Below, piece after piece: positions 1 to 10,060 of a DNA stretch of 30,467 bases. Source of the stretch: a virus; IMG/VR virus record IMGVR_UViG_3300046507_000413, positions 1 through 30,467 of that record. One strand, 5' to 3'. The notes beneath the pieces are model-generated. The model worked only from the letters and a program-made list of their open reading frames with translations, was not told the origin of the DNA and did not search any database. How positions within the stretch are numbered: the first letter of the stretch is position 1; the number at the start of each line of letters is the position of its first letter. Both the position numbers and the translations under genes were made by a program.

Positions 1-396
1 CCGGACTTCGGAAGTGACGATCTTCGTGGAAACCAGCGAAGCATTCAGATCGATCATGTTGTTCGCACTTATCGCCCGAGAAATATCGTTAAAGCAGTTG
101 TCAATCTGCCAGTAGTCGATTTCTACAATTGTCGAGACAGTTTCCGCCCTTCGACGCAACGCCTTTGTATCCGCTTGGGCCACGAGTCTCGCCGAATGGG
201 CGTTCTGTCTACTCATAACGAATATGGCAACTCCCAAAGCGGCTATAGAGCCAATTGCCTGTACCCATGCCGCCCAATCGGAAGGGGCCAATCCCTTCCA
301 TTTGTGCGCCGTAACAACGCTTCCAATTATCTGATGAAGCGCGACAAGCATTGCGATGCACAGCAGCGCGATCACTGCGCGTTCCACGAATTTCAT
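1..396 (-). CDS. Two-helix membrane protein (partial, cut by left edge)
   Basis: Reading the minus strand from an ATG at 396 gives an open frame of 132 codons that leaves the window, so the C-terminus is missing. The protein starts MKFVERAVIALLC, has a first hydrophobic stretch at about residues 7-28 and a second at about 44-61, then a charged, probably cytoplasmic helical part. The second helix begins with WAAWVQAIGSIAAL, nearly the same as in the gene at 1889-2524. I prefer the start at 396 over the ATG at 411, because a GAGG box lies five bases before it and it matches the MNF start of the paralogue. Function is unknown. It is encoded against the direction of the early genes, which suggests expression in lysogeny or as an accessory (moron) gene. 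It may be a superinfection-exclusion or defence protein, but nothing in the sequence proves that. Confidence 0.75.
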   Translation of the reverse strand, partial: MKFVERAVIALLCIAMLVALHQIIGSVVTAHKWKGLAPSDWAAWVQAIGSIAALGVAIFVMSRQNAHSARLVAQADTKALRRRAETVSTIVEIDYWQIDNCFNDISRAISANNMIDLNASLVSTKIVTSEVR

Positions 397-423
397 TCCT
401 ACCTCAGCCATTGCCAAAAAGGA

Positions 424-1888: not shown

Positions 1889-2524
1889 TTAGGCGGGGAA
1901 ATCCTGACTGCTAATTCGAATTCCCCGGCGCTCGCACTTTTCAATCAACTGATTTTGATGACCAATCAAACGGTCCCGGAATCGTTCGGCATCTTGCACT
2001 CGTCTTCTGCTTCGAGAAATGATGTGATCCAGAACGGCGTCGTTGTGATTTCTAAAGTCAGCGCTCGCTTGCGTGAGAAACAGCCCGAGCTGCAAAGCCG
2101 CCACGCTTGCAATATGGTCTGTCTGCGGCGTAACGAAGTTGTCGAGTATCGCTCGAATGTGATCCATTCGAGCCGCACTTTCCTCGAAAACACCATGCTC
2201 GGTGTCGGTTTCGTGCTCGTTGGCAGCGTGATCCATAACAGAAACTGCCTGATACGCGATCGAAGCGATGTTTTTAGCCGCAAGGGTGCGACTGAAAAGA
2301 TCAGCGTCCAAAGCGCGGGTCATCTCGCTTCGGCGTTGGATCAAAAAGAGAAATCCAGTAATCAGCAGCGCGGCTATCGACCCGATCGCCTGCACCCACG
2401 ACGCCCACTCCGACTTATTCCAGTCGTAGTAAAGCCCGGCGGCGATGAAGCCTGGAAGGAGAAACACCACCATGGCCGGGATCATGACTGCGGGACGAGA
2501 GAGAAACCTCGAAATAAAATTCAT
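1889..2524 (-). CDS. Two-helix membrane protein, paralogue of the gene at the left edge
   Basis: A 211-residue protein. Residues about 11-33 and 43-62 are hydrophobic. The second segment contains WASWVQAIGSIAAL, matching the left-edge gene at 13 of 14 positions, and both proteins begin M-(K/N)-F. After the second helix come RR and a long, mostly helical, probably cytoplasmic region of about 145 residues containing several His and Asp. The gene is more AT-rich than its neighbours and runs against the early operon, so early transcription would be antisense to it. That fits an independently acquired accessory gene expressed from the prophage. I do not know its function. Membrane-anchored exclusion or defence roles are possible but unproven. 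A plus-strand frame over the same DNA (1853-2542) lacks protein-like features. Confidence 0.85.
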   Translation of the reverse strand: MNFISRFLSRPAVMIPAMVVFLLPGFIAAGLYYDWNKSEWASWVQAIGSIAALLITGFLFLIQRRSEMTRALDADLFSRTLAAKNIASIAYQAVSVMDHAANEHETDTEHGVFEESAARMDHIRAILDNFVTPQTDHIASVAALQLGLFLTQASADFRNHNDAVLDHIISRSRRRVQDAERFRDRLIGHQNQLIEKCERRGIRISSQDFPA

Positions 2525-2539: not shown

Positions 2540-3243
2540 TGATGCGCCGCTCCCCCATGAAGCCCGGCAACGCGCCGATGAAGCGCACTGCATTCGCGCG
2601 CGGCGAGCGCATCGAGGCCCGCGAGGTGACGAAGACCATCACCAAGGCCGCGCGCGCGAAGAAGTGCAAGGTGCGCACCTGCCGCGCTGAGTTCGTGCCC
2701 GATCAGCCATTTGTCGAATGGTGCTCGCCCGACTGCGGCGCCGCCCTGGCGCTGGCCAAGATCGAAAAGCAGCGCCAGGCCGCCGCCAAGGCCGACCGCA
2801 AGGACACCCAGCAGAAGCTCGAAAAGTTCAAACGTAAGGCCGATCACGTCGCAGACTGCCAGAAGGCATTCAACGCCTGGGTGCGGTTCCGCGATCGGTT
2901 CGAGCCGTGCATAGACTGCAACCGTCATTCCGATGGCGCCGCGCTGACGGGCGGCGACTACGACGCCGGCCACTACCTCTCGCGCGGCAGCCATCCGCAT
3001 CTGCGCTTCGACGAGCGCAACGTATTCAAACAACTGAAGGGCTGCAACCGGCCGGGCGGCACGACGGCGGCATCGTTCCGCGCCGGCGTCGTCGCGCGCA
3101 TCGGCCTGGCCGCCGTCGAGGCGCTGGAAGCAGACAACGAACCGCGCAAGTACACGGTCGACCAACTGGTCGCCATGACCGCGCACTACCGAAAATTATT
3201 GAAGGACCTGAAGGCTGCTGCTGGACCAGCACCTGCAATTTAA
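2539..3243 (+). CDS. ninG: NinG-like recombination nuclease (Rap family)
   Basis: A 234-residue protein. After a basic N-terminus comes a zinc-finger-like stretch (CKVRTCRAEF, then WCSPDC) at about residues 43-70, as in lambda NinG, followed by a Lys/Gln/Ala-rich helix (about 76-110). The C-terminal part has the family core: CIDCNRH, then YDAGHYLSRGSHPHLRFDE, NVFKQLKGCNR and FRAGVVARIG. NinG/Rap proteins are endonucleases acting on branched DNA during phage recombination; catalysis here is inferred from family membership. The start is the first ATG of ATGATG at 2539, with GGGA upstream. The length fits NinG (about 200 residues) plus a short N-terminal extension. Unlike the usual lambdoid order, it lies before the replication genes. 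Confidence 0.85.
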   Translation: MMRRSPMKPGNAPMKRTAFARGERIEAREVTKTITKAARAKKCKVRTCRAEFVPDQPFVEWCSPDCGAALALAKIEKQRQAAAKADRKDTQQKLEKFKRKADHVADCQKAFNAWVRFRDRFEPCIDCNRHSDGAALTGGDYDAGHYLSRGSHPHLRFDERNVFKQLKGCNRPGGTTAASFRAGVVARIGLAAVEALEADNEPRKYTVDQLVAMTAHYRKLLKDLKAAAGPAPAI

Positions 3244-3259
3244 CCGAAACGGAAAAGAC

Positions 3260-5890
3260 ATGAGCGCATTTAGCACTGAAGAACAAAAACTGCTGGTCCT
3301 GGCCGATTACGGCCAGTTCCTGCGCGAGAAAATCAAACTGGCGCAGAAGAATGGCTTCGACGTGCCGCTGGAGCAGATCCACCCGGGCCTGAAGCCGCAC
3401 ACCCGGGACATCGTGCGCTGGGCGCTCGCCGGCGGCCAGCGCGCCATCTTCGCATCGTTCGGCCTGCACAAGACCAGCACCAATTTGGAGGTGATGCGCC
3501 AGATCGGCATTCACCGGCCGGGCGGAGTCCGCGGTATCGTCGCGCCGCTGGGCGTGCGGCAGGAGTTCTCGCGCGAGGTGGCGAAGCGTTTCACCGGCGA
3601 CCAGGTGGTCGACCTGCGCTTCATTCGGACCGACGCCGAGATCGACGACCCGGCCACGATCTACATGACGAACTACGAATCGGTTCGCGAGGGCAAGGTC
3701 GACGTCAGCAAGTGGCGCGCGGCCGGCCTGGACGAGGCCAGCGTGTTGCGCAGCTACGGCAGCAAAACCTATCAGGAGTTCCTGCCGATGTTCGAGGGCG
3801 TCGAGTTCAAGTTCGTCTACACGGCCACGCCAAGCCCGAACCGCTTCAAGGAGCTGATCCACTATGCCGGCTACCTGGGCGTCATGGACACTGGGCAGGC
3901 GCTGACGCGCTTCTTCCAGCGCGACACGGAGAAGGCGGGCAACCTGACGCTGTACCCACACAAGGAGCATGAATTCTGGTTGTGGGTGGCCAGTTGGGCG
4001 GTGTTCATCCAGCGCCCGAGCGACCTGGGTCATTCGGACGAAGGCTACGACCTGCCGCCGATCGAGGTCCGGTACCACGAAGTGCCGAGCAACTACGAGA
4101 CGGCCGGTTCCGAGAAGAACGGCCAGGGCCTGCTGATTCCAAACGTGGCCATGGGCCTGTCGGCGGCCGCCGGCGAGAAGCGCGACAGCATGGGCGCGCG
4201 CGTCGCCAAGGTGGCCGAGATCATGGCGGCGGATCCGGACGACCACTTCCTGATCTGGCACGACCTTGAGGACGAGCGTCACGCCATCCAGGCCGCGATA
4301 CCCGGTGTGGTGAGCGTCTGGGGCACGCAGGACCTGGACGAGCGCGAGCAGCGCATCGCCGACTTCAGTGATGGCAAAATCAAGGATCTCTCGACCAAGC
4401 CGATCATCGCCGGCAGCGGCTGCAACTTCCAGGTCCACTGCCACCGCGAGATTTTCGCCGGCATCGGCTTCAAGTTCAATGACTTCATCCAGGCGATTCA
4501 CCGCGTGCAACGCTTCCAGCAGGCGCACCCGGTCATCATTGACATCGTGCACACGGAGGTTGAACGCAAGGTTCTGGCCGACCTACAGGTTAAGTGGCGC
4601 CAGCACGAAGAGATGCAGGCGAAGATGGGTGAGATCATCCGCACCTACGGCCTGGACCAACTGACGATGCAGGATTCGCTCGCGCGCACCATCGGCGTGG
4701 CGCGCCAGGTCGTGGCCGGCGATCGCTTCTCGGTCGCGCACAACGACTGCGTGCTGGAGGCGCTCGAGCAGCCGGAAAACTCGGTCGGTATGGTTTTGAC
4801 AAGTATCCCATTTTCCAACCATTATGAATACAGCCCGAGCTACAACGACTTCGGCCACACGCAGGACAACGACCACTTCTGGCGACAGATGGATTTCCTC
4901 ACGCCACAGCTGCTGCGCATCCTGCAGCCGGGTCGCATCTACGCATGCCACGTCAAGGATCGGATTAACTTCGGCAACGTGACCGGCGCCGGCGTGCCGA
5001 CGGTGAGCCCATTCCATGCCGAGGCGCTGTTCCATGGCCTGAAACACGGTTTCGACTACATCGGCATGATCACGGTCGTGACCGACGTGGTCCGCGAGAA
5101 CAATCAGACCTACCGCCTGGGCTATTCCGAGGTGTGCAAGGACGGCACGAAGATGGGCGTCGGCTCGCCGGAATACATCCTGCTGTTCCACAAGCCGCAG
5201 ACGGACCGCTCACGCGGCTACGCCGACACGCCTGTGGCCAAGTCGAAGCCACTGTGCACCAGCGACGACGGAACACCGGTACCGTTCGACCGCAAGCTGG
5301 CGCCGATTCCCGGCACCGGCTACAGCGTGGCGCGCTGGCAGGTCGACGCGCATGCGTTCTGGCGTTCGAGCGGCGACCGGCTGCTGGGCGCGGCCGAGCT
5401 GGCCAGCTACGGGCCGGCCAAACTGGCGAAGCTGTTCACGGACCTGTCGCTGGCCAACGTCTACAACTCCGAATACCACGTCGCCACCGGCGAGCAGCTG
5501 CTGGCCAACAAAGCGCTGCCGGCCGACTACCTCAGCCTGGCGCCGGGCAGCAGCGACCCGATGGTCTGGCACGACATCGTGCGCATGCGCACCTTGAACG
5601 GCGAGCAGTCGGCGCGCGCGGTCGAGAAGCACGTTTGCCCATTCCAGATCGATATTGTCGACCGCCTGATCCTGCGCTACACGAACCCGGGCGAGAAGGT
5701 CTACGACCCGTTCTGCGGCCTGGGCACGGTGCCGGTGCGCGCGATGAAACTGGGTCGCGCCGGCGGCGGGTCGGAGTTGAACGTCGGTTACTTCGCCGAC
5801 CAGGTGCATTACTGCCGTGCGATGGAGCGCGAAGTCAGTATGCCGACGCTGTTCGACCTGGAACTGATGGATGAGGAGAACGCATCGTGA
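3260..5890 (+). CDS. SF2 helicase-DNA methyltransferase fusion
   Basis: An 876-residue two-part protein. Residues about 1-450 form an SF2-type ATPase: a Walker-A-like FGLHKT at 67-72 (the usual second Gly is His), LDEAS motif II at about 157-161, YTATP at 187-191, and a C-terminal QAIHRVQR motif VI at about 411-418. Residues about 485-876 are a DNA amino-methyltransferase with the catalytic-type TSIPF at 514-518 and the AdoMet-binding DPFCGLGT at 816-823. Motif IV before motif I is the beta-class order, compatible with N4-cytosine or N6-adenine methylation. Related phage and integrative-element proteins are annotated as helicase/methylase; protection from restriction is the likely role. No cognate nuclease gene is adjacent. 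The start has GGAAAAG upstream. The final GTGA overlaps the next gene. Confidence 0.88.
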   Translation: MSAFSTEEQKLLVLADYGQFLREKIKLAQKNGFDVPLEQIHPGLKPHTRDIVRWALAGGQRAIFASFGLHKTSTNLEVMRQIGIHRPGGVRGIVAPLGVRQEFSREVAKRFTGDQVVDLRFIRTDAEIDDPATIYMTNYESVREGKVDVSKWRAAGLDEASVLRSYGSKTYQEFLPMFEGVEFKFVYTATPSPNRFKELIHYAGYLGVMDTGQALTRFFQRDTEKAGNLTLYPHKEHEFWLWVASWAVFIQRPSDLGHSDEGYDLPPIEVRYHEVPSNYETAGSEKNGQGLLIPNVAMGLSAAAGEKRDSMGARVAKVAEIMAADPDDHFLIWHDLEDERHAIQAAIPGVVSVWGTQDLDEREQRIADFSDGKIKDLSTKPIIAGSGCNFQVHCHREIFAGIGFKFNDFIQAIHRVQRFQQAHPVIIDIVHTEVERKVLADLQVKWRQHEEMQAKMGEIIRTYGLDQLTMQDSLARTIGVARQVVAGDRFSVAHNDCVLEALEQPENSVGMVLTSIPFSNHYEYSPSYNDFGHTQDNDHFWRQMDFLTPQLLRILQPGRIYACHVKDRINFGNVTGAGVPTVSPFHAEALFHGLKHGFDYIGMITVVTDVVRENNQTYRLGYSEVCKDGTKMGVGSPEYILLFHKPQTDRSRGYADTPVAKSKPLCTSDDGTPVPFDRKLAPIPGTGYSVARWQVDAHAFWRSSGDRLLGAAELASYGPAKLAKLFTDLSLANVYNSEYHVATGEQLLANKALPADYLSLAPGSSDPMVWHDIVRMRTLNGEQSARAVEKHVCPFQIDIVDRLILRYTNPGEKVYDPFCGLGTVPVRAMKLGRAGGGSELNVGYFADQVHYCRAMEREVSMPTLFDLELMDEENAS

Positions 5891-6069
5891 CGCGCCGCAG
5901 GGTACTCACAGACGCCCAGGTCCGCGAAGTGCGTGCCGCGTACAAGCCGGGCGTGCGCGGCGCCGGGTACGAGTCGCTGGCGCGCCGTTACTCGGTCGGG
6001 ATTTCCACGATCCGCGACATCGTGACCTGTCGGGCAGTGTATGCGCTGTCGCGCGAGGTGCGATCGTGA
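5887..6069 (+). CDS. Small helix-turn-helix protein
   Basis: A 60-residue protein with a GTG start inside the GTGA overlap with the methyltransferase gene; GAGGAG lies upstream. It begins MTRRRVLTDAQVREVRAAY and contains YESLARRYSVGISTIRDIV, a plain helix-turn-helix of the resolvase/Hin C-terminal type often found as a free small phage protein. It probably binds DNA, as a local regulator or a helper at the nearby origin. It ends in another GTGA that starts the replication gene, so the three genes are tightly coupled. Confidence 0.75.
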   Translation: MTRRRVLTDAQVREVRAAYKPGVRGAGYESLARRYSVGISTIRDIVTCRAVYALSREVRS

Positions 6070-6857
6070 ACTACTACCAGCACCATATCGGCGACTTCCG
6101 TGCTGGCACTTTCACCATGGATCGGCTGGAGCGCTGGCTCTACCGCGACATGATGGACATGTACTACGACAGCGAGAAACCGCTCCCTTTGGACCACGAT
6201 GAGCTGTTCTACACACTTGGAACAACCGTTGAACAAGAACGAACGGCCGTTGAACGTCTGTTGAAATTTAAGTTTAGAAAGACAACGGAAGGCTACCGCC
6301 ACGAGCGGTGCGATTCTGAGATTTTGGCGTTTCATGCCAAGGGTGAGAAAGCGTCCGCTGCCGGCAAGGCATCCGCTGCGATTCGCGCAACAAAAAAGCC
6401 AACGGACGTTGAACCTGATTCCAACGGACGTTCAACAGATGTTCAACGTCCGTCAACTAACCATAAACCAATAACCAATAACCATAAACCATTAAAGAAC
6501 ACTACGTCGGCTTCGCCTCCTGGCGACTATCCGCCGGAGTTCGAGGCGGCTTGGGCCGCTTACCCGCCACGGCCCGGTGCGAGCAAGAAGGATTCATGCA
6601 AGGCATGGGCCGCGCGCTGCAAGGAGGGCGTGAGCGCTGCTGATCTGCTGGCAGGCGTGCAGCGGTATGCAAACTACGTGCTGTTTAGCCGCATCGAGCC
6701 GCAGTACACCAAACAGCCCGCTACATTCTTCGGCCCGGGCGAGCACTACAAGGCCGACTGGGCGGTAACGGGCGGCACGCCGCAGAAAGGGCAGCAACAT
6801 GGAAACTTTGGCAAGCAGGATTACAGCAAGGGAGTTGGCCCCAATGGCGAATTCTGA
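6066..6857 (+). CDS. Replication initiator, DUF1376 (YdaU-like) family
   Basis: A 263-residue protein with a GTG start at 6066, fixed by GTGA overlap and a GAGG box seven bases upstream. The N-terminal domain, NYYQHHIGDFRAGT then RLERWLYRDMMDMYYDSEKPLPLD, is the DUF1376 signature found in phage replication proteins. A low-complexity linker (about residues 118-155, with TNHKPITNNHKP) follows and coincides in the DNA with repeats and an AT-rich tract proposed here as the origin. The C-terminal part (FEAAWAAYPPRPGASKKDSCKAW onward) resembles the helicase/loader-interaction region of lambda O/DnaA-like phage initiators. A DnaC-like loader follows directly, so the pair probably starts replication as lambda O and P do. 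The assignment rests on motif recognition. Confidence 0.85.
   Translation: MNYYQHHIGDFRAGTFTMDRLERWLYRDMMDMYYDSEKPLPLDHDELFYTLGTTVEQERTAVERLLKFKFRKTTEGYRHERCDSEILAFHAKGEKASAAGKASAAIRATKKPTDVEPDSNGRSTDVQRPSTNHKPITNNHKPLKNTTSASPPGDYPPEFEAAWAAYPPRPGASKKDSCKAWAARCKEGVSAADLLAGVQRYANYVLFSRIEPQYTKQPATFFGPGEHYKADWAVTGGTPQKGQQHGNFGKQDYSKGVGPNGEF
6225..6500. other. Candidate replication origin: iterons plus AT-rich tract inside the initiator gene
   Basis: Two near-identical 16-base direct repeats, CCAACGGACGTTGAAC at 6399-6414 and CCAACGGACGTTCAAC at 6421-6436, are followed by an inverted copy GTTCAACGTCCGT at 6441-6453, spaced about 20-22 bases. Two shorter CGTTGAAC copies lie at 6227-6234 and 6248-6255. 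Directly after, 6454-6496 is A/C-rich with almost no G, made of repeated AACCATAAACCA/AATAACC units, a plausible unwinding element. Lambda ori has the same design (iterons then AT-rich DNA inside gene O). The match is by layout, not by a known repeat sequence. Confidence 0.6.
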
Positions 6858-7617
6858 GAGTCCGAAAAAGTACGTCAGCGCGGTGCTGCGCACGTGCGGC
6901 GTGCACGGCGAATACACGTCGATGCTGGTGCGCGGCGCCTGGTCGGGGTGCGTGGCCTGCGACCTTGCTGCGGAACGCGATGCGCTGGCCAGCGAGAATG
7001 CCACATGGCGCAAGGAGCTGCGGGCCCGGGAGTGGAGCGAGAAGCTCGGTCGTGCCGCGATCCCTGATCGCTTCGCAGATCGACGCCTTGCCACCTACGC
7101 GCCCGCCTGCGAGGCCGCCGAGCGTGCGTTGAGGGTTGCCACCACCTACGCGGAAAACTTCGACGAGGCGCGCGCCAAGGGCATGTGCCTGATTTTTTGC
7201 GGTGACGTCGGTACCGGCAAGACGCACCTAGCAATCGGCATCGCCCATGCGGTGCTGGAGCAGGGCCGCCAGGCGGTGTTCACGTCGGTCATCCGCGCCG
7301 TGCGGTCCGTGAAGGAAACGTACGCCAAGGGCAGCGGCCGCACCGAGGCGCAAGCGCTGCGCGACCTGATCGAACCGGACCTGCTGATCCTCGACGAAGT
7401 CGGCGTGCAGTTCGGAAGCGACACCGAGAAGATGATCCTGTTCGAGATCATCAACGGCCGTTACGAGGCTTCGCGGCCAACGATCGCCATCAGCAACCTG
7501 GCGGCGACCGAGCTTGAAGCCTACCTCGGCGCGCGGTCGTTCGACCGGCTGCGCGAGGGCGGCGGTCGCCTGGTGGTGTTCGACTGGCCGTCGCACCGTG
7601 TGCGGAGGGCTGCCTGA
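6799..7617 (+). CDS. dnaC: DnaC-like helicase loader (AAA+ ATPase)
   Basis: A 272-residue protein. The first ATG (6799) follows AAGGG and overlaps the previous gene by 59 bases; a second possible start is Met16 at 6844. A cysteine/histidine group at about 33-54 (CGVHGE, then CVAC) resembles the N-terminal zinc site of phage DnaC-type loaders. The AAA+ core has Walker A GDVGTGKT at 135-142, Walker B LLILDEVG at about 195-202, and the ISNLAATELEAYLG region followed by FDRLREGGGRL, typical of DnaC/IstB-like loaders. It probably loads the host DnaB helicase at the origin bound by the upstream initiator. It ends TGATG, overlapping the next gene by one base. Confidence 0.9.
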   Translation: METLASRITARELAPMANSESPKKYVSAVLRTCGVHGEYTSMLVRGAWSGCVACDLAAERDALASENATWRKELRAREWSEKLGRAAIPDRFADRRLATYAPACEAAERALRVATTYAENFDEARAKGMCLIFCGDVGTGKTHLAIGIAHAVLEQGRQAVFTSVIRAVRSVKETYAKGSGRTEAQALRDLIEPDLLILDEVGVQFGSDTEKMILFEIINGRYEASRPTIAISNLAATELEAYLGARSFDRLREGGGRLVVFDWPSHRVRRAA

Positions 7618-8329: not shown

Positions 8330-8855
8330 CCGATTTCTGCACGCCGTGAATTCGTCCAATTTGCAGGACGATGCGCATCACCACGACACCGATCCGCTCT
8401 GCGCTTCCGCGCTGGCGGATGCTTCCGGCGCCGGCATCGGCTCGCTGCTGTCGCGCGTGAAGTACGCCGACGGCACGCAGCACAAGCTGTTCGAATCCGG
8501 CAGCGCTAACCTGGCCAGCCTGTTGCGCATCTGGACCACTCGCGTGTTCGAAAAGGGGCGCGAGCGAAAGTGGGTGAGGGAGGGAACTGCCTGGGACGCC
8601 GCCGCCGCCCAGGCGCTGTATCGCCGCGTCGCCGAACGCTCGCTGGCTTATTGGCTCGATGGGAAATGCTCCGGCTGCCACGGCAGCGGCAACACCACAG
8701 AGCGCAGGATCTGCGTGCCCTGCAAAGGAACGGGCCGCAGCGAGATCGGTGGCGGCGGCTTCGAGCGCGAAAGGGCGCTGGATATGGTAAGCGAACTGGA
8801 GGGCTTGCTCAGCGCGCACAATGCACGTGCGCAAAGTAAATTAACCTCACAGTAA
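8316..8855 (+). CDS. Four-cysteine zinc protein, candidate late antiterminator (Q-like)
   Basis: A 179-residue protein starting MGFADRFLHAV at 8316, with AGGGAG upstream; the earlier ATG at 8274 has no ribosome site. Helical N-terminal and central parts (FEKGRERKWVREG, then AAAAQALYRRVAERSLAYWL) are followed by a DnaJ-type zinc site CSGCHGSG at 118-125 and CVPCKGTGR at 133-141. A four-cysteine zinc site after a helical domain is also present in lambdoid Q antiterminators. It is the last early gene, upstream of a promoter-leader-terminator arrangement (9846-10035), which is where Q lies. The Q role is inference from position and zinc motif. It could instead be another zinc-binding phage protein. 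Confidence 0.6.
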   Translation: MGFADRFLHAVNSSNLQDDAHHHDTDPLCASALADASGAGIGSLLSRVKYADGTQHKLFESGSANLASLLRIWTTRVFEKGRERKWVREGTAWDAAAAQALYRRVAERSLAYWLDGKCSGCHGSGNTTERRICVPCKGTGRSEIGGGGFERERALDMVSELEGLLSAHNARAQSKLTSQ

Positions 8856-9797
8856 TGCGTTTTTAATTTCCTCAACATCACCGCATGCCAACGCTTCATG
8901 CACCAAATGTGCAATGCTGGTGTGGAAGCTTTTCATTGTGTCAAACATGTCGCCCAATGCCGCCGCCTCCTTGAGCTCACTAGAGATAAGTGCATTTAAA
9001 GCACCTCGCGCCACGGCCGGTGCAGGGTGATCGCTACAATGAATTTTTCCACCGAAATGGCACTTAAACGTCAGTTCGCGTGGTATCCGTTCGATGGCAT
9101 CCAGTAGTTCAGCCTTAAATCTTCCATCGGGGCGCAAGAATAGATGTGTGACACCACCGATATTTAAACTTCGCGCCGCTGCAGTGATTAGAAACCGTGC
9201 ACCTCCTGAATCCGCACCGGCTCCAATTTGGGGGCAATCATATGGGTGGTCGCGCATAATGGAACAAAAGTTTCCATGATGTTTTACAAAAGATATGCCT
9301 TCCAAGTCGTCAATTGGCACCTGATCTTCAATCATGAATTCGAGACAATACATTCCATTATAGTAATGAGTGTCGCTACTTATGTCATGCCACCAAGGGC
9401 CATCTCGGATCGTTGGATCATAAGGAGTTAGTTGGTTCGAGCGGTCAATATCCGTGATTAAAATTCGACAAGCGGGTGGTTTGTATTGCGTGATAGCCTC
9501 AACCCAATAAAATTTTTTATTTTGGATGAGAGCTTTGAAGTCGTAGTCGAATTTTATGTTGCCATATCGAAATCCGAACGTCCAATAATTAGGTGAAAGC
9601 CACCCAACTAATATGCGGCTCGTATTTAACAATGATTTGTCAAACACTAAGCCTGGTCTGATGCCTTGCCCAGAAGCGATATTAAGCGCTGGTTCCACGT
9701 GAGAGGTGTGACTGATTGTGTCGAATCGAGTGAGCGCGCGATCAGGAGGTGGGACAAAGCCTGGCCCGCGAACTGCATATGTATTCCAAGGATTCAT
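8847..9797 (-). CDS. Accessory (moron) protein with an ADP-ribosyltransferase-like N-terminal domain
   Basis: A 316-residue protein, more AT-rich than the surrounding genes and on the opposite strand. Residues about 25-175 show the order seen in PARP/DarT/KptA-like ADP-ribosyltransferase folds: HTSHVEPAL at 30-38, GIRPGLV at 45-51, RILVGWLSPN at 61-70, FRYGNIKFDYD at 76-86, FYWVEAI at 96-102, and CLEFMIEDQVPIDDLEGISF at 151-170. In such families the last motif carries the catalytic Glu (here E153 would be the candidate) and the first carries the NAD-binding His. The C-terminal 140 residues (with CHFGGKIHCSDHPAP) are unrecognised. No macro-domain antitoxin (DarG-like) is next to it. The ART call is pattern-based inference; that it is a real, separately expressed gene is well supported. 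It overlaps the 3' end of the zinc gene by 9 bases. Confidence 0.85.
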   Translation of the reverse strand: MNPWNTYAVRGPGFVPPPDRALTRFDTISHTSHVEPALNIASGQGIRPGLVFDKSLLNTSRILVGWLSPNYWTFGFRYGNIKFDYDFKALIQNKKFYWVEAITQYKPPACRILITDIDRSNQLTPYDPTIRDGPWWHDISSDTHYYNGMYCLEFMIEDQVPIDDLEGISFVKHHGNFCSIMRDHPYDCPQIGAGADSGGARFLITAAARSLNIGGVTHLFLRPDGRFKAELLDAIERIPRELTFKCHFGGKIHCSDHPAPAVARGALNALISSELKEAAALGDMFDTMKSFHTSIAHLVHEALACGDVEEIKNALL

Positions 9798-9823
9798 ATT
9801 TATCTAGCATTGTTGTTTCGGAA

Positions 9824-9852
9824 ATTTTATTTCTTATTCCTTGTGTTGTAAA
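9824..9852 (-). promoter_or_regulatory. Sigma70-type promoter of the ART-like gene
   Basis: On the minus strand, -35 TTTACA (9852-9847), 17-base spacer, -10 TAAAAT (9829-9824); each box matches consensus at five of six positions. The predicted start is about 20 bases before the ATG at 9797. No clear Shine-Dalgarno follows. Confidence 0.6.
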
Positions 9853-9874
9853 CTCAATCAAAGTGCGCTATCAT
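9846..9874 (+). promoter_or_regulatory. Candidate late promoter (pR'-like), sharing its -35 with the divergent promoter
   Basis: Plus strand: -35 TTGTAA (9846-9851), 17-base spacer, -10 TATCAT (9869-9874, five of six). Its -35 lies on the same bases as the -35 of the minus-strand promoter. Transcription from about 9881 would meet the terminator at 10014-10035 after roughly 150 bases, like lambda pR'-tR'. Inference. Confidence 0.45.
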
Positions 9875-10013
9875 CGAAAAACACACTTCACGCACTCGTA
9901 ATGATCGCTTAGGCGGCACCGATAGCGGGGATTCGAGGCTAGCACCAACTTCGCTGATGCTTTCGCTCGTGTGTAGTAGTTCACTTCACAGATTGTTGTT
10001 GGAACGAACCCAG

Positions 10014-10035
10014 AACCCGCCCAGTGCGGGTTTTT
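10014..10035 (+). terminator. Intrinsic terminator, tR'-like
   Basis: Stem AACCCGC (10014-10020) / GCGGGTT (10026-10032), loop CCAGT, continuing into a T run to 10035. It precedes the first small late ORF at 10061 by 25 bases. Confidence 0.75.
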
Positions 10036-10060
10036 GCATTTCTGCGCCAGCGAGGCGACC

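Follow-up and report, generated by a model that had tools for sequence, protein, structure and literature searches.

A predicted phage replication origin with a conserved heptamer array inside a DUF1376 initiator-type gene

Introduction

Can a phage place its replication origin inside the gene for the protein that would recognize it, when that protein belongs to a family with no assigned function? The question is raised by a DUF1376 initiator-type gene in IMG/VR virus record IMGVR_UViG_3300046507_000413, of which positions 1 to 30,467, the whole stretch of DNA that was analyzed, are referred to here as the window. An initial annotation, made from the letters alone, had proposed a lambda-style origin within this gene. 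We conclude that positions 6401-6493 very probably constitute an origin of phage theta replication that lies within the initiator gene itself, in the part encoding the linker. The site consists of five tandem 11-bp iterons and five AACCAnn heptamers that start right after them (Table 1). Origins of this kind are known, but the literature searched appears to contain neither DUF1376 as an initiator family, nor the heptamer element, nor the apparent specificity code described below. DUF1376 is mentioned in just five of 5.39 million open papers searched in full text, and no link between DUF1376 and an origin, and no matching heptamer, was found in the literature searched.

Table 1. Coordinates of the predicted origin elements and the genes that hold or adjoin them
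Feature	Position	Strand	Details or basis
DUF1376 initiator-type gene	6066-6857	+	GTG start, 263 residues; PF07120 match, PHROG primosomal/replication proteins, AlphaFold (AF2) model
Domain order in the DUF1376 protein			winged-helix N-domain, helix with AGKASAAIR segment, origin-holding linker, C-terminal replication-protein domain
Auxiliary upstream 11-mers	6221-6263	+	within winged-helix coding region; AACAACCGTTG (6221-6231), AACGGCCGTTG (6242-6252), AACGTCTGTTG (6253-6263)
Putative iteron-specificity segment, codons 93-109 (GEKASAAGKASAAIRAT)	6342-6392	+	mutual information; motif by iteron table
Main iteron array, five tandem 11-bp units	6401-6455	+	in order AACGGACGTTG, AACCTGATTCC (degenerate), AACGGACGTTC, AACAGATGTTC, AACGTCCGTCA; relatives show period-11 autocorrelation
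Tandem heptamer array (candidate unwinding/helicase-loading element)	6459-6493	+	AACCATA, AACCAAT, AACCAAT, AACCATA, AACCATT; G-free on coding strand
DnaC-like helicase loader gene	6799-7617	+	phrog_50, E 4e-70; IstB-like ATPase PF01695, E 4e-19

Iterons and heptamers in the window gene

What is the repeat unit? The repeat copies that the initial annotation had placed at 6399 (CCAACGGACGTTGAAC), 6421 (CCAACGGACGTTCAAC), and, inverted, 6441 (GTTCAACGTCCGT) are exact, and its two partial upstream copies are present at 6220 and 6241. Its spacing of about two helical turns, or 22 bp, spans two units: the repeat unit itself is 11 bp, which is one helical turn. The sequence CGTTGAAC occurs four times in 30 kb, counting either strand, with every copy inside the DUF1376 gene, and none of 300 synonymous-codon shuffles, and one of 300 codon permutations, produced four non-overlapping copies of one 8-mer. 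The gene thus contains several iterons, as a lambda-type architecture would require. The upstream cluster is treated as auxiliary because it recurs in just nine non-redundant genes, mostly window-like.

The A/C tract nearly lacking G that had been noted directly after the repeats is real, and it is in addition an ordered heptamer array rather than merely a low-complexity sequence. On the + strand, no G-free run in the window is longer than the 44 nt at 6453-6496, and 6455-6499 falls in the third most easily melted region of the window. Judged by G-free run and duplex stability, therefore, the iterons adjoin an easily melted, strand-asymmetric tract of the sort found in lambda-type origins. Plasmid P1 oriR has a similar layout, with five tandem 7-mers beside iterons as an unwinding element; the P1 7-mers carry Dam sites and are intergenic, and their sequence and initiator are unrelated to those of the window. 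Alternatively, the tract could act as RNA, providing G-free, C-rich, unstructured mRNA that is bound by Rho or another RNA-binding protein. The coding strand has no G and a CC every 7 nt, a composition known from Rho-binding RNA. However, a terminator placed this early in the replication operon, inside its first gene, would keep the loader from being expressed, the tract also lies within the third-weakest duplex region, and a function as RNA leaves the coupling to 11-bp iterons unexplained, such that we consider it very improbable.

Is selection acting on the DNA or on the peptide it encodes? First, the linker DNA repeat is translated in differing frames, as T-D-V-E at 6402 and N-G-R-S-T at 6423, which is the first sign of selection on DNA. 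Second, repeat periods of 7 and 11 do not fit a whole number of codons, which makes the repeats a DNA signal rather than a peptide repeat. Third, codon choice in the tract is almost fixed. In 43 aligned genes (the tract comparison was also made with 47 non-redundant genes), conserved domain residues use nearly all of their codons, with entropies of 0.8-2.5 bits, whereas codon entropy in the tract columns N-H-K-P-I-T-N-N is 0 in seven of eight and 0.16 in the eighth. Fourth, in the 52 arrays of genes found through the domain alone, conservation is 97-99% for AACCA, with positions 6 and 7 free, and T can be preceded by I, L, R, K, T, or V, but always by a codon that ends in A (ATA, TTA, AGA, AAA, ACA, or GTA). 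Fixed silent sites, together with amino acids that change under a constant AACCA, point to a constraint on the DNA. It could be argued that the linker peptide NHKPITNN is itself the conserved element, docking to SSB, DnaB, or some such partner, with the DNA repeats as a by-product: many members show almost no change in this peptide, and the tract keeps a single reading frame. The invariance of silent sites and the out-of-frame periods lead us to reject a peptide-level explanation of the tract, and we give protein-level conservation almost no credence. The different reading frames and the constraint on the tract DNA agree with the earlier proposal that the linker protein sequence is free to follow the DNA signal.

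Conservation among relatives

How widespread is the arrangement? Related loci were collected by four routes: a whole-protein search, blind DNA patterns, domain-only searches, which cannot bias the linker, and a Pfam search of 398 Proteobacteria genomes. Once near-duplicates were removed, 237 genes were left, of which 79, including the window and a few named phage hits, make up a linker-unbiased set. The predicted embedded design is common to hundreds of related viruses. In the linker-unbiased set, four perfect heptamers are found in 43 genes and at least 17 of the 20 fixed positions in 52; synonymous shuffles of these 79 genes gave 20 of 20 fixed positions in 2 of 395 trials. Motif-free autocorrelation across 205 non-redundant genes, in the 110 bp before the tract, is 0.41, 0.38, and 0.36 at lags of 11, 22, and 33, versus about 0.25. 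In the tract it is 0.64, 0.61, 0.59, and 0.50 at lags of 7, 14, 21, and 28, a periodicity that is partly by construction because the tract was located through its heptamers. Autocorrelation is flat in the DUF domain and in the downstream region, and the 50 genes whose retrieval did not depend on the linker show the same pattern. Some of the 11-bp signal is carried by the amino acid sequence and so survives synonymous shuffling, but the real genes give a higher peak.

The tract appears to be specific to DUF1376. Blind 18-mer and five-heptamer scans returned almost exclusively DUF1376 genes among the matches listed. For example, 171 of the 176 five-heptamer loci listed from blind DNA patterns in viral contigs have DUF1376 in the covering same-strand open reading frame (ORF), and four of the remaining five are apparently DUF1376 genes truncated by the end of a contig. 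A tract common to all O-like initiators was ruled out: ST64B Sb42 and Burkholderia CSP3 share the C-terminal part and lack the tract.

Relatives do carry repeats at the equivalent place in the linker, which the initial annotation had named as a check; the repeats differ in sequence, with the same 11-bp period and the same A/C tract after them. The iterons upstream of the constant tract fall into at least five multi-member classes, including CGTTGAAC, TGCGAACGCA, AACAGGTGTTG, AACCCAGCAGC, and GATCCCAGTGG, and these classes differ between phages while period and position are kept. Could the repeats instead be an operator through which the replication operon regulates itself, or the site of another regulator, with the A/C tract incidental? 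Tandem palindromic 11-mers could equally be repressor sites, and operators and lambda-type origins are known to sit near each other. However, the array is in the middle of the gene rather than at a promoter, the heptamer tract follows it directly, and an operator does not predict a near-invariant tract beside changing iterons. An operator is therefore very unlikely.

Several observations weigh against an origin at this site. A blind sample of 24 DUF1376 genes from Proteobacteria genomes contained no strict heptamers, although some of the 24 have variant CCA-repeat tracts and iterons at the equivalent place. For a four-copy 11-mer, the 99% null is exceeded by only 43% of tract-bearing genes, and many arrays are degenerate. 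GC skew, another check named at the outset, was computed over the window and is weak, with no clear or decisive minimum at the site. Lastly, the fold matches of the protein are weak (see below).

Strict heptamers are not universal in the DUF1376 family: at the tract position, 6-bp CCAGAA repeats or variant heptamers take their place in some members. Relatives L431 (about 540-680 in gene coordinates), L457, L300, L297, L449, and L452 have (AACCAG)n 6-bp repeats after the iterons and no canonical heptamers. This suggests, as a general rule, an AACCA core repeated every 6-7 bp.

A possible two-part specificity code

If the iterons change and the tract does not, which part of the protein changes with the iterons? 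Mutual information with iteron class lies mostly in columns 93-109, less in 44-55, and least in 1-7, 15-19, and 70-79. Codons 93-109 are the end of a long helix, just after the winged helix, and the AGKASA codons vary, indicating that this segment is conserved as protein. Among classifiable genes (132 of 205 have too few iteron copies for classification), AGKASAxxR pairs with GTTCAAC iterons (38:0:0), SAxxRW with TGCGAACGCA iterons (0:18:0), and GGRPrk with CCCAG iterons (0:0:6), without contradictions between motif and class, the motif patterns having been written after the alignment was seen. Expressed as gene pairs, which are not independent, 871 of 871 same-motif pairs share an iteron class and 0 of 1020 different-motif pairs do so, at all levels of winged-helix identity. 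A partial check of 29 genes lacking the canonical tract found GTTCAA sites in most AGxAS genes and TGCGAA-type sites in four of five SAxxRW genes; none of the AGxAS or SAxxRW genes among the 29 had the other motif's sites in number. In L431 and L457, whose proteins have the motif NAGGRxKAW, the 11-bp repeats are related but of a further kind, CAACCGCGGTG-like. This coupling is a computed observation, as are the repeats, their periods, the silent-site conservation of the heptamers, and the turnover of the iterons.

One interpretation, to which we assign an even chance, is a two-part code in which the helix-end peptide at 93-109 would read the phage-specific iterons, the shared AACCAnn array would be the common unwinding and helicase-loading site, and peptide and iterons would be exchangeable together. 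Such joint exchange would let related phages keep separate origins with the same loading element. A competing account of the code, although not of the origin, is that the peptide and the iteron class covary solely through adjacency and joint recombination, without contact; we rate this as a substantial possibility, if short of an even one. Peptide and iterons are within a few tens of bases of each other in most genes. On the other hand, the falloff of information is uneven, with residues 56-79 less informative on iteron class than the more distant residues 44-55, and the coupling holds in 107 of 107 pairs with winged-helix identity under 35%. Moreover, in L301 the AGRASA sequence is near nt 290 and GTTGAAC iterons are at nt 527-637, though some copies are nearer.

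An insert of ~80 residues (YMPGEGVMYAVRV...VKVGVTANMKSRLHQLRSKYG) separates the putative specificity segment from the iterons in L003/L013/L014 (gene 3001-4065) and in L298, two distant DUF1376 proteins. The insert has no Pfam match in L003. Despite the insert, the iterons remain beside the tract.

Proposed mechanism and comparison with known systems

How might the origin function? By analogy with lambda and pSK41, we infer binding, melting, loading, and origin function as follows. The DUF1376 protein would bind the tandem 11-bp iterons with one protomer or half-site per helical turn, and iteron binding would strain and melt the adjacent AACCAnn array. The C-terminal domain and the neighboring DnaC-like ATPase would then load host DnaB onto the exposed strands, and the linker protein sequence would follow from the DNA signal. 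C-terminal domains and downstream ATPases vary among DUF1376 family members while the heptamers are constant, so the heptamer reader is probably common to all members; either the winged helix or a conserved factor of the host is the probable candidate.

The protein itself is assigned to DUF1376 with a score of 84 bits against a gathering score of 30.1; PF07120 covers residues 2-86 (E 1e-23, profile search), and the full-length protein matches PHROG primosomal and replication proteins. The AlphaFold model, built from a 43-row alignment, predicts a confident winged helix at residues 8-80 and a long helix at 80-109 that ends in the putative specificity segment. The best structural match is the ORC2 winged helix (Z 6.4), and the DnaD N-domain 2vn2 also matches (Z 5.2, root-mean-square deviation 2.9 over 73 residues), at scores common to winged helices generally. 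A Foldseek search with the model found only generic winged helices, none with E under 0.001, and no O-protein structure is among the fold-search matches listed.

The nearest parallels are lambda gene O with ori-lambda and the Stx phage origins (PMC7466680), which likewise have iterons and an easily melted tract midway through the initiator gene, with the loader gene next. In lambda, according to work cited in that source, two iterons and the neighboring AT-rich tract are the minimal unwinding unit (PMC7466680). The window differs in that its N-domain is DUF1376 rather than the lambda O-type DNA-binding domain, its iterons are 11-bp tandem units, and its tract is an ordered AACCAnn array with silent-site conservation across many phages. 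At the sequence level, a lambda gene-O layout in a DUF1376 gene is supported by the DUF1376 match, the adjacent DnaC-like loader, and the predicted winged helix. The initial description of the initiator as unrelated to lambda O applies, by sequence only, to the N-domain but not to the whole protein in every case, since some members match O-like PHROGs in the linker and the C-terminal part.

RepA_N plasmid initiators are a second parallel. In pSK41, as described in PMC5703833, the origin is in the center of rep, where, as in the window gene, the iterons encode a linker; in pSK41 this linker is dispensable, the winged-helix N-domain binds the iterons and the C-domain varies with host. In contrast, a PDB sequence search with the DUF1376 profile had no match to any RepA_N or DnaD chain (one marginal partial match, Glr2806, E 0.0013), the hosts here are mostly Proteobacteria, and the heptamer array is a feature of the window that the passages of PMC5703833 consulted do not mention for RepA_N. 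Bacillus subtilis oriC has a DnaD recognition element opposite the DnaA-trios, a short periodic element, located where the origin melts, that is thought to steer strand-specific helicase loading (PMC10201434). The bottom strand of the window tract (TGGTTnn) also contains TnnT motifs, a resemblance only; the B. subtilis origin is chromosomal, with a different initiator and a different period.

What are the implications of an origin in this position? First, DUF1376 is a large phage family lacking an assigned function, and the evidence points to a role. Second, many phages and prophages would gain a predicted origin that can be located via the 7-mer pattern. Third, the family offers a natural data set on changing initiator DNA specificity, because iteron sequence and protein segment covary in dozens of natural examples. 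Fourth, the heptamers provide a clean and testable candidate for the features, beyond AT-richness, that a site of unwinding or loading must have.

Gene neighborhood and other observations

The loader gene lies directly downstream, and its start overlaps the 3' end of the initiator gene. An IstB/DnaC-like loader or a DnaB-like ATPase is downstream of the DUF1376 gene in five of ten relatives examined. The closest relatives of the window are from Duganella, Janthinobacterium, and viral contigs. Immediately 5' of the initiator gene, a 60-residue ORF (5887-6069, +) has weak helix-turn-helix matches (CENP-B_N 0.005, phrog_4629 0.001). An 876-residue ORF (3260-5890, +) matches a phage DNA helicase (phrog_16, residues 20-874) and has an N6_N4 DNA methyltransferase domain at residues 511-845; it is possibly a helicase-methyltransferase fusion just ahead of the replication module. 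Elsewhere in the window, the ORFs at 1-417 (-) and 1889-2524 (-) both contain WVQAIGSIAAL near hydrophobic segments, have no Pfam match, and look like related small membrane proteins. A low-GC island at 8850-10050 (0.41-0.50 versus ~0.64) holds a 316-residue ORF (8847-9797, -) without a Pfam match, which is likely an acquired cargo gene.
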